From Rhodanobacteraceae bacterium (lineage in GTDB: Bacteria; Pseudomonadota; Gammaproteobacteria; Xanthomonadales; Rhodanobacteraceae): 64,000 nucleotides of DNA. A program made the position numbers and the translations under genes. A model generated the notes under the pieces. That model did not search any database and had not been told where the DNA came from. It saw nothing but the letters and a program-made list of their open reading frames with translations. Positions 4,202-32,198 of the stretch are shown here, piece after piece. Positions within the stretch are counted from its first letter, which is position 1, and the number at the start of each line of letters is the position of its first letter. The stretch covers positions 62,001-126,000 of the forward strand of contig SCQU01000021.1 of assembly GCA_004299555.1 (NCBI GenBank), read 5' to 3'.

Positions 4202-5878
4202 ATGAGCATTATCCACGTAAACCAGATTGCAGCACGCATTGCGCCACAGTTCGAGCCGTCCATTGTAAGCAACGGCGCGCTGCATTCAACTCCAGTTGAC
4301 GCAGCGAAGCCTCTATTGACCCGATGCTTGGCTGCTTACGCCATTCAGTACAAAACAGCGTGTTCTGATGCGGATGCCGGCGCCGCTGTCGTTGATGGGT
4401 CTAATGACAACGGGATTGATGCCATATACGTTAATCAAGGGAACGGTGTCGTCGTGATGGCACAGTCCAAATGGATGAGCGACGGCACCGGCGAACCAAG
4501 TAGTGCAGACATTGGGAAATTTTGCCGCGGCGTTGAAGATGTTCTAAGTTTCGAGTGGGACAGGTTTAATGCCGCAATACAAGCAAAACGCACAGAGGTC
4601 GAATCCGTAATCAATTCTTTTGATGCGCACGTGGAGCTCGTATTGATATATACCGGCTCTCAAGACTTGGCGGTACATGGAAAGAGGCAACTTGACGACC
4701 TGCTTACGAAACTGAACGACTCGTCAGAACTGGTTTCACTCACAATTCTTAATCAAGCGGCGGTGCATGCATCCTTGGCAGCTGGCTCCGCCGGTGCGCC
4801 GGTTGTGCTCGAATTTGGCCTAGCAAATTGGGGACGCGTTGACGAGCCGCTGAATGCCTATTACGGGACGGTAACAGGATCGGAGCTCGCCGCATGGTGG
4901 AGCACGAACGGCGTGCGCCTTTTCGATCGCAACCTGCGCAGTGTTCTTGGAAGAACAGAGGTGAATCAGGAAATCACAAGTACGGCCATAAAGCGACCCC
5001 GTGATTTCTGGTACTTTAATAACGGCGTGACTGTGGTAGCAAATCGTGTCACGAAGAACCTTGCGGGCGGGGCTTCCCGCGACTTTGGAACATTTCGTGC
5101 CGACGGTGCGAGCGTAGTGAATGGGGCACAAACGGTAAGCACCCTTGGTCGCGCAGCGGCCAGTGGAGCGAATCTTGATGATGTGCGCGTCCTCTTACGC
5201 GTCATTTCATTAGAGAATGATTCCGCCAACACTGATTACAGTGCTGAAATTACAAGGACGAACAATACCCAGAATAGGATAGAGGCGCGTGACTTCGCTA
5301 CTCAGGATCCAGAGCAAACACGGCTCATGAGAGAGCTCGCGATGGATGGTATTACGTATGCGGTCGTAAGGTCTGAGGAAACAAGCGCAACTGAGGACTT
5401 CATTGGGTTGCCGGATGCCACTGTGGCACTTGCGTGCGCGCGCGCTGACCCGAGTTTAGCGGTTCTCGCGAAGCGGAATATTGGACAATTCTGGTCTGAT
5501 ATATCGAAGTCTCCATATAAGACTATATTCAATCCTAGCACAAGCGGTGCGCGACTCGCTCGATCGGTTAGGGTTGTTCGAATGGTTGAGCAGCGGTTGC
5601 GGAAGCACATAGGTGACTTACCAAAGAAATCGGGTAAGCGGTACGGCATACTCGTGCATGGGAATAGACTGATTGAATCGCTTGTTTTTAAGCAGATTGG
5701 TGGCTCTGCGCTTGACGCGAGCCACTTTGACATCGCGCCATTCGGCATTGATGCCAAAGTTGATGGCATCGTTGATAAGGTTGTCGACGTCATCGACACG
5801 ACGTACGGGGACAATTTCATGGCGACGTTGTTTAAGAATACCGACAAGTGTACATACATTTTTGCGCATGTTGTTTAA
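4202..5878 (+). CDS. AIPR-family (abortive infection/phage resistance) protein with nuclease-like N-terminus
   Basis: The 558-residue product matches the AIPR family (PF10592), annotated as abortive-infection phage resistance. Family signatures are LFDRNLRSVLG at 241-251, FWYFNNGVTVV at 270-280, VVNGAQTVSTL at 307-317 and TRTNNTQNRIEARDF at 352-366. Upstream, D65, D69, D73 and QSK at 88-90 fit the D...QxK pattern of PD-(D/E)XK nucleases, so a DNA-cutting role is plausible but inferred. Base composition differs sharply from its neighbours: 4561-4620 has 25 G/C of 60. This suggests recent transfer. The gene stands alone between icmF and a field of RAYT repeats; I see no methylase, helicase or antitoxin partner. 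The ATG has only a weak purine-rich ribosome binding site. Confidence 0.85.
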   Translation: MSIIHVNQIAARIAPQFEPSIVSNGALHSTPVDAAKPLLTRCLAAYAIQYKTACSDADAGAAVVDGSNDNGIDAIYVNQGNGVVVMAQSKWMSDGTGEPSSADIGKFCRGVEDVLSFEWDRFNAAIQAKRTEVESVINSFDAHVELVLIYTGSQDLAVHGKRQLDDLLTKLNDSSELVSLTILNQAAVHASLAAGSAGAPVVLEFGLANWGRVDEPLNAYYGTVTGSELAAWWSTNGVRLFDRNLRSVLGRTEVNQEITSTAIKRPRDFWYFNNGVTVVANRVTKNLAGGASRDFGTFRADGASVVNGAQTVSTLGRAAASGANLDDVRVLLRVISLENDSANTDYSAEITRTNNTQNRIEARDFATQDPEQTRLMRELAMDGITYAVVRSEETSATEDFIGLPDATVALACARADPSLAVLAKRNIGQFWSDISKSPYKTIFNPSTSGARLARSVRVVRMVEQRLRKHIGDLPKKSGKRYGILVHGNRLIESLVFKQIGGSALDASHFDIAPFGIDAKVDGIVDKVVDVIDTTYGDNFMATLFKNTDKCTYIFAHVV

Positions 5879-25551: not shown

Positions 25552-27804
25552 TCAACCGGTGGTTTCAATCCGGTCCACGTGCCGCAGGCCACGCGGCAGC
25601 AAGCCGCCCCGCTGCGCGCGGTTGCCGCCGTACTCGACCAGGTCCGCCCATTTCAGGATGAGCTTGCGCTGGCCGGCGTAGAGGGTGACCGCGCCCGAAT
25701 TTTCCGCGACCACGGCCACGCCGACCAGGCGCTCCCCGCCGGCTGCCAACCTGGCCTTGGGGATTTCGATCAGCTTGTTGCCGCGGCCGCGTTCAAGCTC
25801 CGGCAGGTCCGCCACCGAAAACATCAGGCAGTGGCCTTCGCTGGTCACGGCTATAACCCGGTCGCGCGCCGCGTCCTTGATGTACGCCGGTGCCAGCACG
25901 CGTGCGCCGGTATCAATGTTGACAACCTGCTTGCCGGCCTTCTTGTTGGCCAGCAGCCCGCCAAAGCGGGTCCGAAAGCCGTATCCCGCGTCGGTCGCGA
26001 GGATCAGTCGGGTGGCATCGTCGCCGATCGCGAGCGCATCGAAGCGCGCACCGGCCGGAGGTGCAAACCGGCTGGTCAGGGGTTCGCCGTTGCCGCGCGC
26101 CGAGGGCAACGTGTGCGCGGGCGTGGAATAGCTGCGGCCGGTGGAATCGAGGAACACGACGTGCTGCGAACTCTTGCCGCGCATGCTCGCGAGGTAGGCG
26201 TCGCCTTCGCGATAGGTCAGCGCCGCCGCGTCGACGTCGTGGCCCCTGGCGGCGCGCGCCCAGCCCATGGTGCTGAGGACCACGGTTACGGGCTCGGCGA
26301 TCACGAGTTCGCTCGCATCCAGCGCCTGCGCCGCGGCGTGCTCGACCAGCGGCGAGCGACGGGCGTCGCCGTATTTGTCGGCGTCGGCCCGGAGTTCCTG
26401 CTTGATGAGGGTCTTCAGGCGCGCCTTCGAATTCAAGGTCACGTCGATCTTCGCGCGTTCGGCTTCCAGCGCATCGCGTTCGGCGTTGAGCTTCATTTCC
26501 TCCAGTCGCGCCAGTTGGCGCAGCTTGGTTTCGAGGATGTAATCGGCCTGTTCCTCGCTGAGCCTGAAGCGCGCGATCAGCGCCGGTTTTGGCTCGTCCT
26601 CGTGGCGCACGATGCGGATGACTTCGTCCAGGTTGAGGAACGCGATCCGCAGGGCTTCCAGCAGGTGCAACCGGTGTTCGACCTTTTCCAGCCGCTGGCG
26701 CAGGCGCCGGGTGACAGTGTCGGTGCGGAAGCGCAGCCATTCCTCGAGGATTTGCCTGAGCGGCTTGACCTGCGGCCGGCCGTCCAGCCCGATCATGTTG
26801 AGATTGACGCGGAAACTCTTTTCAAGGTCCGTCGTCGCGAACAGGTGTTGCATCATCGCGTCCGTGTCGACCCGGTTTGAACGCGGGATCAGCACCAGCC
26901 GAATCGGATTGACGTGATCCGACTCGTCGCGAACGTCCTCCAGCATCGGCAGTTTCTTGGCCCGCATCTGCGCGGCGATCTGCTCGATGACCTTTGCCGG
27001 CGAAACCTGGTGCGGCAGCGCGGTCAGCACCACGTTGCCGCGCTCGAGCGTGTAGACGGCGCGGCAGCGCACCGAGCCATTGCCGGTCGCGTACAGCGCC
27101 ACGAGATCGCTGCGGGGCGTGATGATTTCCGCCGCGGTCGGAAAATCCGGGCCGAGGACGTGCTCGCACAGGTCCGCGACGCTCGCGCCGGGCTCGTCCA
27201 GCAGGTGGATGCACGCCGAGGCGATTTCACGCAGGTTGTGCGGTGGGATGTCGGTCGCCATGCCAACCGCGATGCCGGTGGAACCGTTCAGCAGGACGTT
27301 CGGCAGCCGCGCCGGCAGCCACGAGGGTTCCTTCAGCGTGCCGTCGAAGTTCGGCGACCATTCGACGGTGCCCATGCCGACTTCGCCCAGCAGCAGTTCG
27401 GCGATCGGGGTGAGGCGCGACTCGGTGTAGCGCATCGCGGCGAACGATTTCGGATCATCCGGCGAGCCGAAGTTGCCCTGGCCGTCGACCAGCGGGTAGC
27501 GATAACTGAATGGCTGCGCCATCAGCACCATCGCCTCATACACCGAACTGTCGCCGTGCGGATGGAATTTGCCGATCACGTCGCCGACCGTGCGCGCCGA
27601 CTTCTTGGGCTTGGCGGTGGCGGCCAGGCCGAGCTCGCTCATCGCGTAGACGATGCGGCGCTGCACCGGCTTGAGCCCGTCGCCCACGAATGGCAAGGCC
27701 CGATCGAGAATCACATACATCGAGTAGTCGAGGTAGGCGCGCTCGGCGTATTCGCGCAGCGGGATTTGTTCGAAGTTGCCTTGCAGTGTTTCCATGGGAT
27801 CCAT
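25552..27804 (-). CDS. parC: DNA topoisomerase IV subunit A
   Basis: ParC cuts and rejoins DNA, together with ParE, to unlink daughter chromosomes. The 750 residues carry the GyrA/ParC winged-helix region with [19 protein letters not shown], the catalytic tyrosine in MRYTESRL and [21 protein letters not shown]. The C-terminal half is a reduced beta-pinwheel without the GyrA box, as expected of ParC rather than GyrA. The quinolone-determining serine and glutamate (S and E of GDSSVYE) are wild type. Start is either 27804 or 27795; neither has a strong ribosome binding site. parE is not in the window. Confidence 0.94.
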
Positions 27805-27985
27805 TCGGGTTGCGACCGCCACGCTGGGCGAAGCGCCCATTGTCGCGGCGTGCGCGGATCCATGCACGCGCGCGGGCGTCAGCGCCCGGCGTGAGCCGGC
27901 CTGCGGCGGGTTTCCCGGATATCCCGGCAGACGCGGCGCGGGTCATGCCACCCGCGCGACTGGAATGTCGCCGCGCCGGCGGGGC

Positions 27986-29170
27986 TCAGCGCGGTACGCG
28001 GTAGCCGCCGGGCACGCCGTGCGGCGACAGGGTGAGCTGCCACAACTGGCTTTGGCGCGTGCGGAAGGTGGCTGCCGAACCGCAAAGGTAGTACCGCCAC
28101 ATGCGGCGGAAGCGCTCGTTGTAACGCGAGTCGGCTGCGGCCAACTCCGGCCATGCGGCATCGAAATTGGCAAGCCACGCCATCAGGGTCTTGTCGTAGT
28201 CGGCGCCGAAGTTGTGCCAGTCCTCGACCACGAACAGGCCTTCCAGCGCGGGCGTGACCTGCGAAGCGGCGGGAATCATCGAGTTCGGGAAAATATATTT
28301 CTCGATCCATGGATCGGGCCGGCTGGGCTTGCCGTTGGTGCCGATGCAATGCAGTAGTGACAGCCCGTCGTCCTTCACGCAGCGCCGGCAGACCTCGAAA
28401 TAGGTGCGGTAGTTCTTCCAGCCGACGTGCTCGAACATGCCGATCGAGTACACCGCATCGAATGGTTCGTCGAGCTCACGGTAATCCTGCAGGCGGATTT
28501 CAATCGGCAGGCCCCGGCACAGGTCACGCGCAAAGGCGGCCTGTTGGGCCGACACCGTCACGCCGACGCCGGTCACGCCGTACTTTTCAGCCGCATACTT
28601 CAGGGTTTCACCCCAGCCGCAACCGATGTCGAGGATTTTCATCCCCGGTTGCAGCCTGAGCTTGCGGCACACGAGGTCAAGCTTGGCTTCCTCGGCAGCG
28701 TCGAGGCCGGCGGCGTCCTTCCAGTAGCCGCAGGAATACACCAGCCGCCGGCCCAGCATCTTCGCGAACAGATCGTTGCCGATGTCGTAGTGGGCCTTGC
28801 CGATCCTGAAGGCCTTGCGGCCGCGCTGCAGGTTGATGAAGCGCGCGCGCAGGTGCGCGCGGAGCGCGGCAAAATCGTGCAGTTGCTCGTCGAGATGCGC
28901 GCCGAGGACCTGGTAAAAAAACTGGTCAAGCGCGGGGGTGTCCCACCAGCCGTCCATGTATGCCTCGCCGAGGCCCAGCGAGCCGTGGGCAAAGGTGCGG
29001 GCAAACACGCGCTCGTCGTTGACCTTGAGATCCCACGCGCGGTCGCCGTCGATGCGGACGCCGGCGTGCGCCAGCAGCGTTTGCGCCTTTTCGCGCAGGG
29101 CTTGATCGTGGTGCGACACCGGACGCGATTGCGCGACGTCGTGCGCGGAGGGGGTCGAAAGGTCGTTCAT
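27986..29170 (-). CDS. cfa: Cyclopropane-fatty-acyl-phospholipid synthase
   Basis: Cfa uses S-adenosylmethionine to add a methylene bridge to unsaturated acyl chains of membrane phospholipids, a known acid and stress response. The 394-residue protein has the N-terminal lipid-binding domain (LGEAYMDGWWD) and then the methyltransferase with KAHYDIGNDLFAKML, the SAM loop KILDIGCGWGE and the family block HYDIGN...YSCGYW. GAGG lies 9 bases before the ATG, whose first bases overlap the stop of the MFS gene (ATGA). It is the last gene of the crcB operon, an unusual place for cfa. Confidence 0.95.
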   Translation of the reverse strand: MNDLSTPSAHDVAQSRPVSHHDQALREKAQTLLAHAGVRIDGDRAWDLKVNDERVFARTFAHGSLGLGEAYMDGWWDTPALDQFFYQVLGAHLDEQLHDFAALRAHLRARFINLQRGRKAFRIGKAHYDIGNDLFAKMLGRRLVYSCGYWKDAAGLDAAEEAKLDLVCRKLRLQPGMKILDIGCGWGETLKYAAEKYGVTGVGVTVSAQQAAFARDLCRGLPIEIRLQDYRELDEPFDAVYSIGMFEHVGWKNYRTYFEVCRRCVKDDGLSLLHCIGTNGKPSRPDPWIEKYIFPNSMIPAASQVTPALEGLFVVEDWHNFGADYDKTLMAWLANFDAAWPELAAADSRYNERFRRMWRYYLCGSAATFRTRQSQLWQLTLSPHGVPGGYRVPR

Positions 29171-30363
29171 TTCGCGGTCCTCGTTGGCTTGCGTAAACTC
29201 CACAGCAACGGGCACGCCGCAACCTGCAGGACAACCGCCGCGATTACCGTGTAGAGCGGGTTCACATCGTACAACACGCCAAGCAGGATGCTGCCCAGGC
29301 ACCACGCGGTGCCATAGATGGCGTTGAAGATGCCCATCACCGTGGCGCGCCGCTCTGGCGGGATGCGGGTGGCAACCGCTGCGCGGAAGAGCGAATCGTG
29401 CGCACCGAAACCGACGCCCCACAGCACCATCCCGGCCAGCGCCGCCCATGCGCCGCCCAGGAACACCAGCGGTGCGTACAGCGCCGGCACCAGCGTCGCC
29501 CAGAGCAATACCGACAAGCCGCGCCGGTCGAACAATTTGCCAAGGACCAGCGCGGTCAGTCCGCCGGCAAGACTCGCGAGTGCGTACAGGGTGGGTACCA
29601 CGCTGGTGGCGACAACGTGACCGCGTGCCAGGTGGAACGCGATCAGGGCAAAGTCCGAATATCCGGCGGCGACGAAGGCCGTGGCCACGAGGAAGATTTT
29701 CAGCTCGCGCAGCGCACGCGCGTCGCTGGTGCTTGGGAGTGGGTGGGGGTCGAGCGCCTGCGGCTGCGGGAACCGGCTGCGCGCGATGGCGAGGGTCGCG
29801 AGCGCTCCCAGCGCCGGCAACAACAACCAGCCGAAGGCTTCGCGGTAACCGCCGTGCAAAAACAGGATCAGCGCGGCGACCAGCGGGCCGAGCACCGCGC
29901 CGGTCGAGTCGAGCGCCTCGTGCAGGCCGAACGCCCAGCCCGCGCCGCCCATGTCCCTGGCCGCACTGGAAAGCATGGCGTCGCGCGCGGGCGTGCGCAG
30001 CGCCTTGCCGCTGCGCTCCAGGATCACCAGTCCCGCGGCGACCGGCCAGTTGCCGGCCAGCGCCAGCGCCGGTACCGCGAGCAGGTTGATCGCGTAACCG
30101 GCGATGGTGATCGTCCAGTAACGCTTGGTCTTGTCGGCCAGCGCGCCGGTGAACAGACGCAGGACGTAGCCGAACAGCTCGCCGCCGCCGGCGACCAGGC
30201 CGATGATGGCACCGGTCGCGCCGAGGGTGCCAAGGTAGGGTCCCCAGATCGAACGCGAGCCTTCGTAGGTCATGTCGGCGAACAGGCTGACGATGCCGAG
30301 CAGGACCACGAAGACGAGTGCGCGTTTGTGCGCCGCCGCGGGTCCGGGCGCCGCGCCGGTCAC
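29167..30363 (-). CDS. Major facilitator superfamily transporter
   Basis: The 398 residues form about twelve membrane helices. Family features include the cytoplasmic loop after helix 2 (RLFTGALADKTKRYW) and its second-half echo (LVLGKLFDRRGLS). An early motif FADMTYEGSRSIWGPYL and RSGKALRTPARDAML place it in an uncharacterised MFS group seen in many proteobacteria. The substrate is unknown. It overlaps DUF190 upstream and cfa downstream by four bases each, so translation is coupled within the fluoride-riboswitch operon. A role in fluoride or acid stress is inferred from that context only. Confidence 0.88.
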   Translation of the reverse strand: MTGAAPGPAAAHKRALVFVVLLGIVSLFADMTYEGSRSIWGPYLGTLGATGAIIGLVAGGGELFGYVLRLFTGALADKTKRYWTITIAGYAINLLAVPALALAGNWPVAAGLVILERSGKALRTPARDAMLSSAARDMGGAGWAFGLHEALDSTGAVLGPLVAALILFLHGGYREAFGWLLLPALGALATLAIARSRFPQPQALDPHPLPSTSDARALRELKIFLVATAFVAAGYSDFALIAFHLARGHVVATSVVPTLYALASLAGGLTALVLGKLFDRRGLSVLLWATLVPALYAPLVFLGGAWAALAGMVLWGVGFGAHDSLFRAAVATRIPPERRATVMGIFNAIYGTAWCLGSILLGVLYDVNPLYTVIAAVVLQVAACPLLWSLRKPTRTAK

Positions 30364-30704
30364 GGCGCGCCGCCATCCAGCGTGCCAAATTCCGCCGGCA
30401 GCGTCGCGTAGAAGATTTCCAGGTGTTCCGCGCGTACACGTGCCAGCATTTTGTCGGCCGCTTCGCGTGTCACCACGAAGTCTACCCGTACCGCCTCCTG
30501 CCCCGCGAGTTCGAGGAAGCGCGTTTCGTGGGTGACGCCGTGGCGGCCAAACCCCGCGATCGAGCGAAAGGCGGTACCGCCGGACAGCCCCAGTTTCCTC
30601 GCTTCGGCGAGCAGCCAGTCATACAGCAGCACACCCGCGTAACGGCGGTTTTCGTGGACAAAGAAGCGCAGGTAGACGCCTTGGGTGGGGGCGGGGTCAT
30701 TCAT
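30360..30704 (-). CDS. DUF190 family protein
   Basis: The 114-residue product has the DUF190 (PF02641) pattern: YLRFFVHENRRYAGVLLYDWLL, AFRSIAGFGRHGVTHETRFLELAGQEAVRVDFV and a final helix. The fold is PII-like. The family is often found beside crcB, and here the ATG overlaps the crcB stop (ATGA) with an excellent CAGGAG 7 bases upstream. It may sense or regulate fluoride export, but no biochemical role is established. Confidence 0.88.
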   Translation of the reverse strand: MNDPAPTQGVYLRFFVHENRRYAGVLLYDWLLAEARKLGLSGGTAFRSIAGFGRHGVTHETRFLELAGQEAVRVDFVVTREAADKMLARVRAEHLEIFYATLPAEFGTLDGGAP

Positions 30705-31093
30705 GCGAGACTCCTGAGCAGCGCTTGCATCAACGCAAAACCGATCAGCGTCATGCCCAGCGTGCCAATGAGGTGGGCACCGATGATGGTTGCGGTCCAA
30801 CCGTACTGGCCACGCAGCAGCAGGGTGATCGTCTCACCCGAGAAAGTCGAGAACGTGGTGAGTCCGCCCAGACACCCGGTGGTGACGAACACGCGGGTGG
30901 CGGGCGACAGCGACTGGAACTGGGCGAACGCGCCAAGGATCAGCCCCATCAACAACCCACCCAGCAGGTTGGCGGCCAGGGTGCCCAGGGGCACGGTCGG
31001 GAATACCGGATTGAACCACGTGCCAAACAGGTACCGCAGGCACGCACCGATGAATGCGCCGCTGCCGGCGGCGAGCAATGGATAGATTGGCAT
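30701..31093 (-). CDS. crcB: Fluoride channel CrcB/Fluc
   Basis: CrcB forms dual-topology dimers that let fluoride leave the cytoplasm. The 130 residues have four membrane helices, the GAFIGACLRYLFG opening, the conserved TLAANLLGG and the TTGCLGGLTTFSTFSGE signature with the sodium-site glycines and phenylalanine box. The ATG at 31093 gives the normal family length. The open frame continues upstream only because it runs through the riboswitch. It is the first gene of a four-gene overlapping operon. Confidence 0.96.
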   Translation of the reverse strand: MPIYPLLAAGSGAFIGACLRYLFGTWFNPVFPTVPLGTLAANLLGGLLMGLILGAFAQFQSLSPATRVFVTTGCLGGLTTFSTFSGETITLLLRGQYGWTATIIGAHLIGTLGMTLIGFALMQALLRSLA

Positions 31094-31183
31094 GTTTGCA
31101 ACGGCTCCCGTGCGGGTAGTCGGGAACCGGGCGCGCTGGCTGCTCGTCAAGCGGCGCTGCCAACACTCCGGAGTCCCGGTCGT

Positions 31184-31240
31184 GTAGGCATCATCAGCCG
31201 GACGGGCCGGCGGTTCGGGGAGGCATGCCATCTCCCGTCA
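31184..31240 (-). promoter_or_regulatory. Fluoride riboswitch (crcB motif) aptamer
   Basis: Read on the minus strand, the leader contains GGGAGATGGCATGCCTCCC, then GAACCGCC, a GC stem and GGCTGATGATGCCTAC. These are the conserved blocks of the crcB RNA motif: a GGGAG/CTCCC stem, the GATGGCAT/ATGCC pairing and the GGCTGATG loop. It sits 90 bases upstream of the crcB start, exactly where this riboswitch is expected. The expression platform between 31183 and 31094 contains the dyad ACTCC-GGAGT but I cannot say whether control is at termination or translation. Confidence 0.92.
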
Positions 31241-31250
31241 ATGGGTGCGT

Positions 31251-31281
31251 ATGGTAGCCGAAGCCGCCGCCGCCGCGTCAA
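31251..31281 (-). promoter_or_regulatory. Candidate promoter of the crcB operon
   Basis: On the minus strand TTGACG (31281-31276) and TACCAT (31256-31251) lie 19 bases apart, and transcription would start just before the aptamer. The -35 box overlaps the TGA stop of the upstream HExxH gene. The spacer is two bases longer than ideal, so this is a prediction. Confidence 0.45.
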
Positions 31282-32198
31282 GCTGAAGGTGGCAACAGTC
31301 CGCGCATCTGCAGGAACGCGCGGGCGTCCTCGGCATCGCGTTCGAACCACGCGCGCGCGGACCCCAGCCTAAACGAGTACCCCCACGCGTCCATGTCGGC
31401 AAATGCGCGCGCACGGCCAAAATCCGGCAAATCGTCGGCCAGCAGGATCTGCAGGTAGCAGGTGGCGTCCTCTTCCTCGAGCGAATCGCTGGCGTCGGTA
31501 TGGATGGCGGCGCGCCGGGCAGGATCGGCCACCAGGAGGTGGCAGGCTTCGTGCAGCAGTGAATGCAGCGGCGTGTCGGGCCGCGCAAAGACACGTGTTG
31601 CGATCACGCCGGCTTCCGGCTCGCCCCAGTAGCTGCCGGGGATCAACGCACCATCAGCGACCTGCACGAGTTCGAGCCCGTGCCGTGCAAGCAGGGCGGT
31701 AGGCAGTGCGAAACCGATGTCGATGATGCGCAAGACATCCCCCCGATGCTGCGCATCGACCCCCTTCGTATCGAAGGGGGTAAAGCCAGGCTTGTTTTTC
31801 CCCTTCGTATCGAAGGGGGTAAAGCCAGGCTTGTCTTTCCCTTTCATATCGAAGGGGGTGAAGCCGGGCTTGTCTTTCCCCTTCATATCGAAGGGGGTGA
31901 AGCCGGGCTTGTCTTTCCCCGTCATAACGAAGGGGGTGAAGCCGGGCTTGTCTTTCCCCTTCATATCGAAGGGGGTGAAGCCGGGCTTGTCTTTCCCCGT
32001 CATATCGAAGGGGATGAAGCCGGGCTTGTCTTTCCTCTTCATATCGAAGGGGGTGAAGCCGGGCTTGTCTTTCCCCTTCGTATCGAAGGAGGTGAAGCCA
32101 GGCTTGTCGCCCCGCGCCGTCTCGAAGGCCGCCGAATCAGGCTTGTCTTCCCCCTTCGCGGGCGAAGGGGGACTGAGGGGGATGGTCGTCGGGTCCAT
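31278..32198 (-). CDS. HExxH putative zinc-binding protein with repeat-derived N-terminus
   Basis: The 306-residue frame has two unlike halves. Residues about 1-150 are 13-residue repeats of the type KGKDKPGFTPFDM, encoded by the 39-bp tandem array. Residues about 155-306 form a compact domain opening VLRIIDIGFALPTALLARHG, with the metal-type motif HEACH in LHSLLHEACHLLVADPARR and an acidic EEEDATCYLQILL that could give the third ligand. I do not recognise a named family; a zincin-like peptidase fold is likely. It starts 26 bases after minE on the same strand. The true start may lie after the array, for example a TTG at the VLRII junction, in which case the repeats are leader DNA. Confidence 0.6.
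   Translation of the reverse strand: MDPTTIPLSPPSPAKGEDKPDSAAFETARGDKPGFTSFDTKGKDKPGFTPFDMKRKDKPGFIPFDMTGKDKPGFTPFDMKGKDKPGFTPFVMTGKDKPGFTPFDMKGKDKPGFTPFDMKGKDKPGFTPFDTKGKNKPGFTPFDTKGVDAQHRGDVLRIIDIGFALPTALLARHGLELVQVADGALIPGSYWGEPEAGVIATRVFARPDTPLHSLLHEACHLLVADPARRAAIHTDASDSLEEEDATCYLQILLADDLPDFGRARAFADMDAWGYSFRLGSARAWFERDAEDARAFLQMRGLLPPSA
31761..32150 (-). repeat. 39-bp tandem array with two dyads per unit
   Basis: Nine well-kept units run from 31761 to 32111, with a tenth degenerate unit to 32150 and a partial one beyond. Each unit holds a near-perfect dyad CCCCTTC...GAAGGGG and the dyad AAGCC-G-GGCTT, so the array can fold into a row of hairpins. All three plus-strand frames and the minus frame stay open, because 39 is a multiple of three and the unit lacks stops in those frames. 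Units differ mostly by single bases. Confidence 0.95.

Follow-up and report, generated by a model that had tools for sequence, protein, structure and literature searches.

Why should the gene of a membrane-lipid enzyme stand behind an RNA switch for fluoride? The question is raised by a stretch of 64,000 nucleotides from a Rhodanobacteraceae genome (GCA_004299555.1, contig SCQU01000021.1, positions 62,001 to 126,000), called the window here and numbered from its first letter, in which a fluoride riboswitch is followed by crcB, a DUF190 gene, the gene of an MFS carrier and cfa, which encodes cyclopropane-fatty-acyl-phospholipid synthase. An earlier note on this DNA had proposed this order and a control of cfa by fluoride, and Pfam and NCBIfam matches on one strand bear out the order. 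We read the locus as an operon that is switched on by fluoride and joins export to membrane remodelling, and give this reading a probability of about two in three. The co-regulation of cfa with crcB by the riboswitch is well supported by the genome comparison presented below. Membrane cyclopropanation as a part of the fluoride response of the Rhodanobacteraceae is the best reading, and the benefit of Cfa would probably lie in a reduced leak of hydrogen fluoride (HF) and protons or in less membrane damage.

The aptamer matches RF01734 at 31178-31244 on the minus strand (cmscan, 50.5 bits against a gathering score of 34, E 4.8e-11), and this match encloses the segment 31184-31240 which had been assigned to it before. 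It is the sole Rfam match at gathering score within the window and the single RF01734 match of the genome (29 contigs, 98.26% complete). All four genes are likewise encoded on the minus strand. The first, crcB (30701-31093), encodes a predicted Fluc fluoride channel of 130 amino acids (PF02537, 81.8 bits), which exceeds both NCBIfam cut-offs (TIGR00494, 86.4 against 80.45 bits; NF010792, 132.3 against 125 bits) and is by sequence a close relative of the solved Fluc channels (5a43); one crcB match was found in the genome. The DUF190 protein (30360-30704, 114 amino acids; PF02641, 64.9 bits) has an additional P-II match (PF00543) of 21.7 bits, under the cut-off of 25. The MFS carrier (29167-30363, GTG start, 398 amino acids) matches PF07690 with 91.4 bits; an assignment of its substrate was tried and was given by neither search, with no NCBIfam model at its cut-off and no PDB sequence match at E 0.01.

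The last gene, cfa (27986-29170, 394 amino acids), matches NF008686 with 577.8 bits (cut-off 400) over positions 9-383 of 383 and is therefore full length; its product aligns with the solved Cfa structure 6bqc from residue 27 through its C-terminus (E 5.6e-126). Residues C147, E247, H274 and Y325 align with 6bqc and are invariant in 15 of 15 Cfa rows. We take them to be the active-site residues, presumably the counterparts of C139, E239, H266 and Y317 in E. coli. A single canonical copy of cfa was found in this nearly complete genome; besides it, PF02353 recovers one fragmentary match, which covers 106 of its 273 positions with 33.7 bits (cut-off 27). Each of the three gene junctions is a four-base overlap as described earlier, with the correction that the middle one (DUF190/MFS) reads GTGA and not ATGA, the sequence of the crcB/DUF190 and MFS/cfa junctions.

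The promoter suggested upstream of the riboswitch is plausible but weak. Read by eye, a putative -35 element TTGACG (31276-31281, minus strand) stands 19 bases from a putative -10 element TACCAT (31251-31256, minus strand), and similar pairs are found at two related loci (TTGACG-19-TACCAT at L040, TTGACG-19-TATCAT at L158), while two others (L038, L039) have a -10-like TACCAT or TAACAT and no clear -35 element. A consensus scan of 27700-31700, in which spacers of 16-18 bases were allowed, missed these elements and gave no promoter; consensus scans for promoters and terminators were uninformative in the GC-rich window and at the related loci in general. Together with the four-base overlaps, the lack of a consensus promoter within the gene set is an indirect hint at one transcript that would run from the riboswitch promoter to cfa.

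Whether the arrangement is a peculiarity of one genome was addressed in a sample of 398 genomes of the order, 133 of them with an aptamer at E 0.001, in which the DNA around riboswitches and cfa genes was compared and the four window proteins were placed by tblastn. Within the family, 83 genomes including the window's own have an Rfam match, and 81 were inspected (G372 and G376 were left out). Canonical cfa stands in line behind a riboswitch in 62 of these 81 genomes and in 15 of 19 genera, counting cfa matches of at least 300 bits, matches within 3.6 kb and gaps of at most 2.6 kb. Three further genomes (G358, G336, G380) have a riboswitch at the main cfa where Rfam does not list the aptamer, which raises the count to 65/81. 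The prevailing order is crcB-DUF190-cfa (52 of the 62 loci), followed by crcB-DUF190-MFS-cfa (three), loci with two crcB genes (three), crcB-cfa (two) and loci with cfa first (two). The counting rule omits G310, in which a further open reading frame (ORF) lies between DUF190 and cfa; by eye, this long ORF behind a riboswitch (L102, 3717-6333) is peptidase-like.

The four-gene order of the window recurs behind a riboswitch at L038, L039 and L158; dozens more genomes have the three-gene form that lacks the MFS gene, so that the search in relatives which the earlier note had called for was successful. A covariance model built from 21 aptamers (R1) was used to search further loci. In five of the 20 riboswitch-negative family genomes covered by this second search it finds an aptamer followed by crcB-DUF190-cfa, the loci ending inside cfa. 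Among eight named loci (a ninth match, L199, 17.1 bits and cut off, was left out), the riboswitch and crcB-DUF190-cfa are present in Dyella nitratireducens (L162) and Dyella sp. EPa41 (L163), Dyella being placed in the Rhodanobacteraceae, Lysobacterales, as well as in the Rhodanobacter metagenome-assembled genomes (MAGs) L160, L161 and L164, in Rhodanobacteraceae ZG21-1 (L159) and in MAG REEB215 (L177); MAG SZAS-93 (L158) is the named record with the four-gene order. Canonical cfa is present in 79 of 80 family genomes, with two copies in G198 alone. The recurrence of the gene order in dozens of genomes makes the riboswitch-cfa arrangement more than chance.

The control of cfa by fluoride is made more likely by CFA (cyclopropane fatty acid) synthase genes that stand behind a riboswitch of their own, without crcB, in four genomes. 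Three of these units are canonical and pass NF008686, namely those of G198 (L060), G230 (L067) and G146 (L130), the last belonging to another family. In the fourth, G336 (L109), 180 bases separate the riboswitch from the probable start of a synthase of the CfaB type, which matches PF02353 with 336.5 bits, has NF040703 as its best NCBIfam match (449 bits, under the cut-off of 650) and is 38% identical to the window Cfa over the matched part. These direct units are the strongest argument against a mere neighbourhood of the genes. The relations of 57 Cfa rows were estimated by a quick maximum-likelihood tree, with support from the Shimodaira-Hasegawa-like approximate likelihood ratio test (SH-aLRT) only. 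G198 carries one cfa in its main operon (L251) and one in an island, and the island copy groups as sister with that of G146, of the other family (SH-aLRT 99); likewise, the L067 copy of G230 is sister to that of G368 (L123; SH-aLRT 99). Each pair forms its own branch of a fork left unresolved, alongside the branch of the window's genus and a branch of 24 rows (support 91) which holds most of the sampled main-operon rows including L251. On this tree, the canonical direct copies may have arisen apart from the operon form or together with it. Judged from these arrangements, a CFA synthase gene has been brought under a fluoride riboswitch at least twice, once in the canonical and once in the CfaB type, and a riboswitch-cfa unit has apparently passed from one family to another.

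The genomes G198, G255, G285 and G336 carry 8-12 fluoride riboswitch matches each, mostly clustered in islands (L060-L061 on G198:C40; L076 and L155 on G255:C4; L088-L090 and L156 on G285:C35; L109-L113 on G336:C3 and C10). By Pfam, the G198 island contains genes for an enolase, a pyrophosphatase, an SNF2 helicase and a membrane protein of the NADH-dehydrogenase/hydrogenlyase type, and that of G336 a Na/H exchanger and Usp; DUF190, MFS and CFA synthase genes are additional members of the islands. The SNF2-type helicase of 1136 residues (L060, 5943-9350) directly follows a fluoride riboswitch (5727-5793), and ORFs of similar length adjoin the enolase gene in other islands.

How fluoride would act on the operon is suggested by the leader. 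Across 21 aptamer sequences, P1, P3 and the pseudoknot between the loop and the 3' strand are paired in 98.8% of 251 cells, and six of 12 pairs are changed on both sides, a number reached by none of 500 shuffles; the count of pair types is unremarkable (equalled by 209 of 500 shuffles). The aptamer structure is thus well supported by comparative sequence evidence. Just 3' of the aptamer core, a short hairpin CCGG-GACT-CCGG (31168-31179, minus strand) is kept in all four sequences of the genus, and since its four pairs never vary, covariation gives no information on it either way. A second hairpin (31102-31129, minus strand; 31129-31123 paired with 31108-31102) covers the Shine-Dalgarno sequence of crcB in the leader fold and is our proposed expression platform. 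All of its cells are paired in the four genus sequences and one pair is changed on both sides (G-C/A-U), which 94 of 500 shuffles do as well. We take translational control by a hidden crcB ribosome-binding site as likely in the window's genus; the window leader yielded no expression platform of the terminator type. A pairing of the start codon with the 5' strand of the aptamer, also seen in the leader fold, was not compared in relatives and was set aside. The leaders of other genera fold differently, and we do not claim a single mechanism for all.

In many aptamers of the family, P1 and P3 are separated by an additional stem, which can reach about 40 bases (for example L041, L051, L055 and L119). 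Their scores are often near or below the Rfam gathering score; of the eight named loci, all with a strong R1 match, two pass it. Surveys that rely on Rfam therefore count too few fluoride riboswitches in this family, and the pairing of riboswitch and cfa may have been overlooked owing to these low scores.

We hypothesize here that fluoride, entering mainly as HF, rises in the cell and lets the aptamer fold, and that the folded leader would permit the translation of crcB, in the window's genus perhaps by freeing the hidden ribosome-binding site. The overlapping downstream genes would be translated together with crcB. CrcB would release fluoride from the cell, and Cfa would turn unsaturated membrane lipids into cyclopropane lipids, so that the membrane could resist the acid, HF and proton load. 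With cfa as the sole canonical copy in the genome, the level of cyclopropane lipids would be tied to fluoride. A more far-reaching version, to which we give slightly less than even chances, holds that cyclopropanation is, in the Rhodanobacteraceae, a dedicated, riboswitch-controlled fluoride defence, with the canonical CFA synthase brought under fluoride control in most members and two CFA subfamilies recruited separately to fluoride riboswitches, and that a cyclopropane-rich membrane slows the cycle of HF and protons by which export is defeated.

The most serious competitor accepts the same circuit and changes its purpose: Cfa may counter cytoplasmic acidification, the loss of proton-motive force or general membrane damage rather than the entry of HF. 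We regard this as a tenable explanation, if somewhat short of probable. Cyclopropane lipids are tied to the acid resistance of E. coli (PMC7083825, PMC11340327, PMC10070827), cyclopropane fatty acids being regarded as a major factor in the stationary phase (PMC7083825), and fluoride accompanies permeable, compromised membranes in Pseudomonas putida (PMC13104614). Na/H exchangers, one of which is part of the G336 island, are common among riboswitch genes. The DNA does not separate this purpose from a barrier against HF, and both can hold. The findings on acid resistance in E. coli and on membranes in P. putida likewise each back a single step of our own reading.

Less well placed is the explanation that neighbourhood carries no function, cfa having been placed behind crcB in an ancestor and being transcribed from its own, for instance stationary-phase, promoter, with a riboswitch that serves crcB alone. 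In favour of it, L248, L249, L254 and L167 have crcB next to cfa, and L168 has crcB-DUF190-cfa, with no riboswitch detected at any of them. It is opposed by the direct units described above, which involve two CFA subfamilies in four genomes, and by the four-base overlap of the MFS gene and cfa in the window. Moreover, crcB was near none of the nine cfa loci examined in other families of the order, so that the adjacency is more than an arrangement inherited from far back in the order. On balance, we consider an arrangement without function unlikely.

Several observations nevertheless weigh against the proposed operon, part of them through this explanation. In the genus mate G342 (L040), the genes crcB, DUF190, MFS and cfa persist with 77-87% identity, as does the promoter-like TTGACG-19-TACCAT, but no aptamer was found at its operon (L040, 3500-3900); R1 gives a single weak match (20.8 bits), elsewhere in the genome. 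Fluoride control is therefore dispensable in this strain, which by its leader is a natural loss of that control. The Luteibacter-like genus g9 has a riboswitch-linked cfa in none of 11 genomes, yet at two of three loci examined crcB adjoins cfa with no riboswitch detected there; the two genes can thus stay together without the switch. Gaps of about 130 bases (L039) and about 180 bases (L158) before cfa leave room for a separate promoter; scans of these gaps gave no consensus promoter, sigma-S and other types being outside the scan. In the other families of the order, cfa adjoins a riboswitch in one genome (G146) of the 45 compared, out of 50 that bear riboswitches (G063, G106, G233, G321 and G327 were left out). 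Outside the order, in 24 genomes of the class and 61 of the phylum (85 in all, with riboswitches at E <=0.001 and some below the Rfam cut-off), a CFA synthase gene lies within 5 kb of a listed riboswitch in none (0/24 and 0/61), while 52 of the 61 phylum-sample genomes have a CFA relative elsewhere. The single match near a riboswitch, about 3 kb upstream of it in G644 (23.5 bits), was too weak for a CFA synthase. Within the family, many of the 80 genomes carry more distant CFA-family genes elsewhere (about 250-305 bits), and cfa need therefore not be the only source of cyclopropane lipids in the relatives.

One published finding stands on the same side: in growing E. coli, unsaturated fatty acids, the precursors of cyclopropane fatty acids, are credited with a lower proton permeability; cyclopropane fatty acids were undetected in exponential cells (PMC7083825). 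Among six Dyella strains (five from R2A broth and one from another study), cyclo-17:0 amounts to 0.7% and 3.3% in two and is not detected or low in four, and a summed feature including its precursor to 1.2-7.4% in the same table (PMC12789092, consulted in part); a Luteibacter table lists no cyclopropane acid either (PMC9965599). These tables do not discriminate between the readings.

It is very improbable that Cfa and the carrier serve some special product, such as a fluorinated or lipid compound exported by the MFS protein, instead of bulk membrane lipid. Homologues of the carrier (48-55% identity) do follow fluoride riboswitches, as the first gene in line in G255 and G336 and behind another ORF in G198 and G285, but most operons of the family lack an MFS gene (as the predominance of crcB-DUF190-cfa among the cfa-bearing riboswitch loci, 52/62, illustrates) and Cfa is a full-length canonical synthase of the phospholipid type. 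The suggestion of the earlier note that the carrier may export a second product gains neither support nor contradiction from these homologues.

The proposed operon has clear counterparts among known fluoride systems. HF is the form in which fluoride enters, with an acidification of the cell, and fluoride export goes along with functions against acid stress (PMC11139923). Known RF01734 operons have the same aptamer and the same exporter and contain crcB, CLC-F, Na/H exchangers, pyrophosphatase, enolase and formate hydrogenlyase (PMC11139923, PMC2864571), and several of these partner genes recur in the islands of the family. Enolase, pyrophosphatase and Na/H antiporters are tied to fluoride (PMC11139923), and the enolase, pyrophosphatase, Na/H exchanger and Usp genes of the islands match the kinds linked to fluoride in this paper and in PMC5533749, which argues for the proposed fluoride response. 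The operon ppaC-uspA-eno-gpmA-crcB-orf5249 of Enterobacter cloacae FRM is likewise a riboswitch-led multi-gene unit which combines export with other protection; it is induced by fluoride and needed for high resistance (PMC5533749, as far as available). There the evidence consists of reverse transcription PCR, knock-out and complementation. The FRM operon has no cfa, and the word cyclopropane is absent from the text (PMC5533749).

The window Cfa is a full-length relative of the E. coli-type enzyme (6bqc) and scores above the cut-off of NF008686, but the two genes differ in their control: small RNAs are among the regulators of cfa in E. coli (PMC6755755, PMC11340327), and its cyclopropane acids are a stationary-phase trait (PMC7083825), while cfa of the window is behind a fluoride riboswitch. 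A recurrent enzyme that modifies membrane lipids is not in the gene lists contained in the available parts of PMC11139923 and PMC2864571, whereas cfa recurs here. In the open-licence literature we found no paper that links a fluoride riboswitch or crcB with a cyclopropane synthase, an entry for cfa in the supplement of Baker et al. 2012 being still possible. As far as their accessible text goes, PMC12421806 (fluoride riboswitch and cyclopropane) and PMC6486687 (fluoride, crcB and cyclopropane fatty acid) mention the terms together in unrelated matters, and PMC12595759 mentions neither cyclopropane nor cfa. What seems to be new here is therefore the CFA synthase as a recurrent member of an otherwise known type of fluoride-riboswitch operon.

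The fluoride responses in the surveyed literature concern export, pH and poisoned enzymes, and the entry of HF through the bilayer is taken as given. If our reading is true, membrane permeability itself would be a regulated and directly measurable fluoride defence, and cyclopropane lipid synthesis would have a chemical signal in addition to growth phase. With one canonical cfa, one riboswitch and a genus mate without the aptamer, the window's genome would also offer a clean system for the function of cyclopropane lipids. As a minor observation on the surroundings of the operon, the ORF immediately upstream of it contains a 39-base tandem repeat (31761-32108, 8.9 copies, 93% matches), which encodes a repeated KPGFTPFD protein motif.

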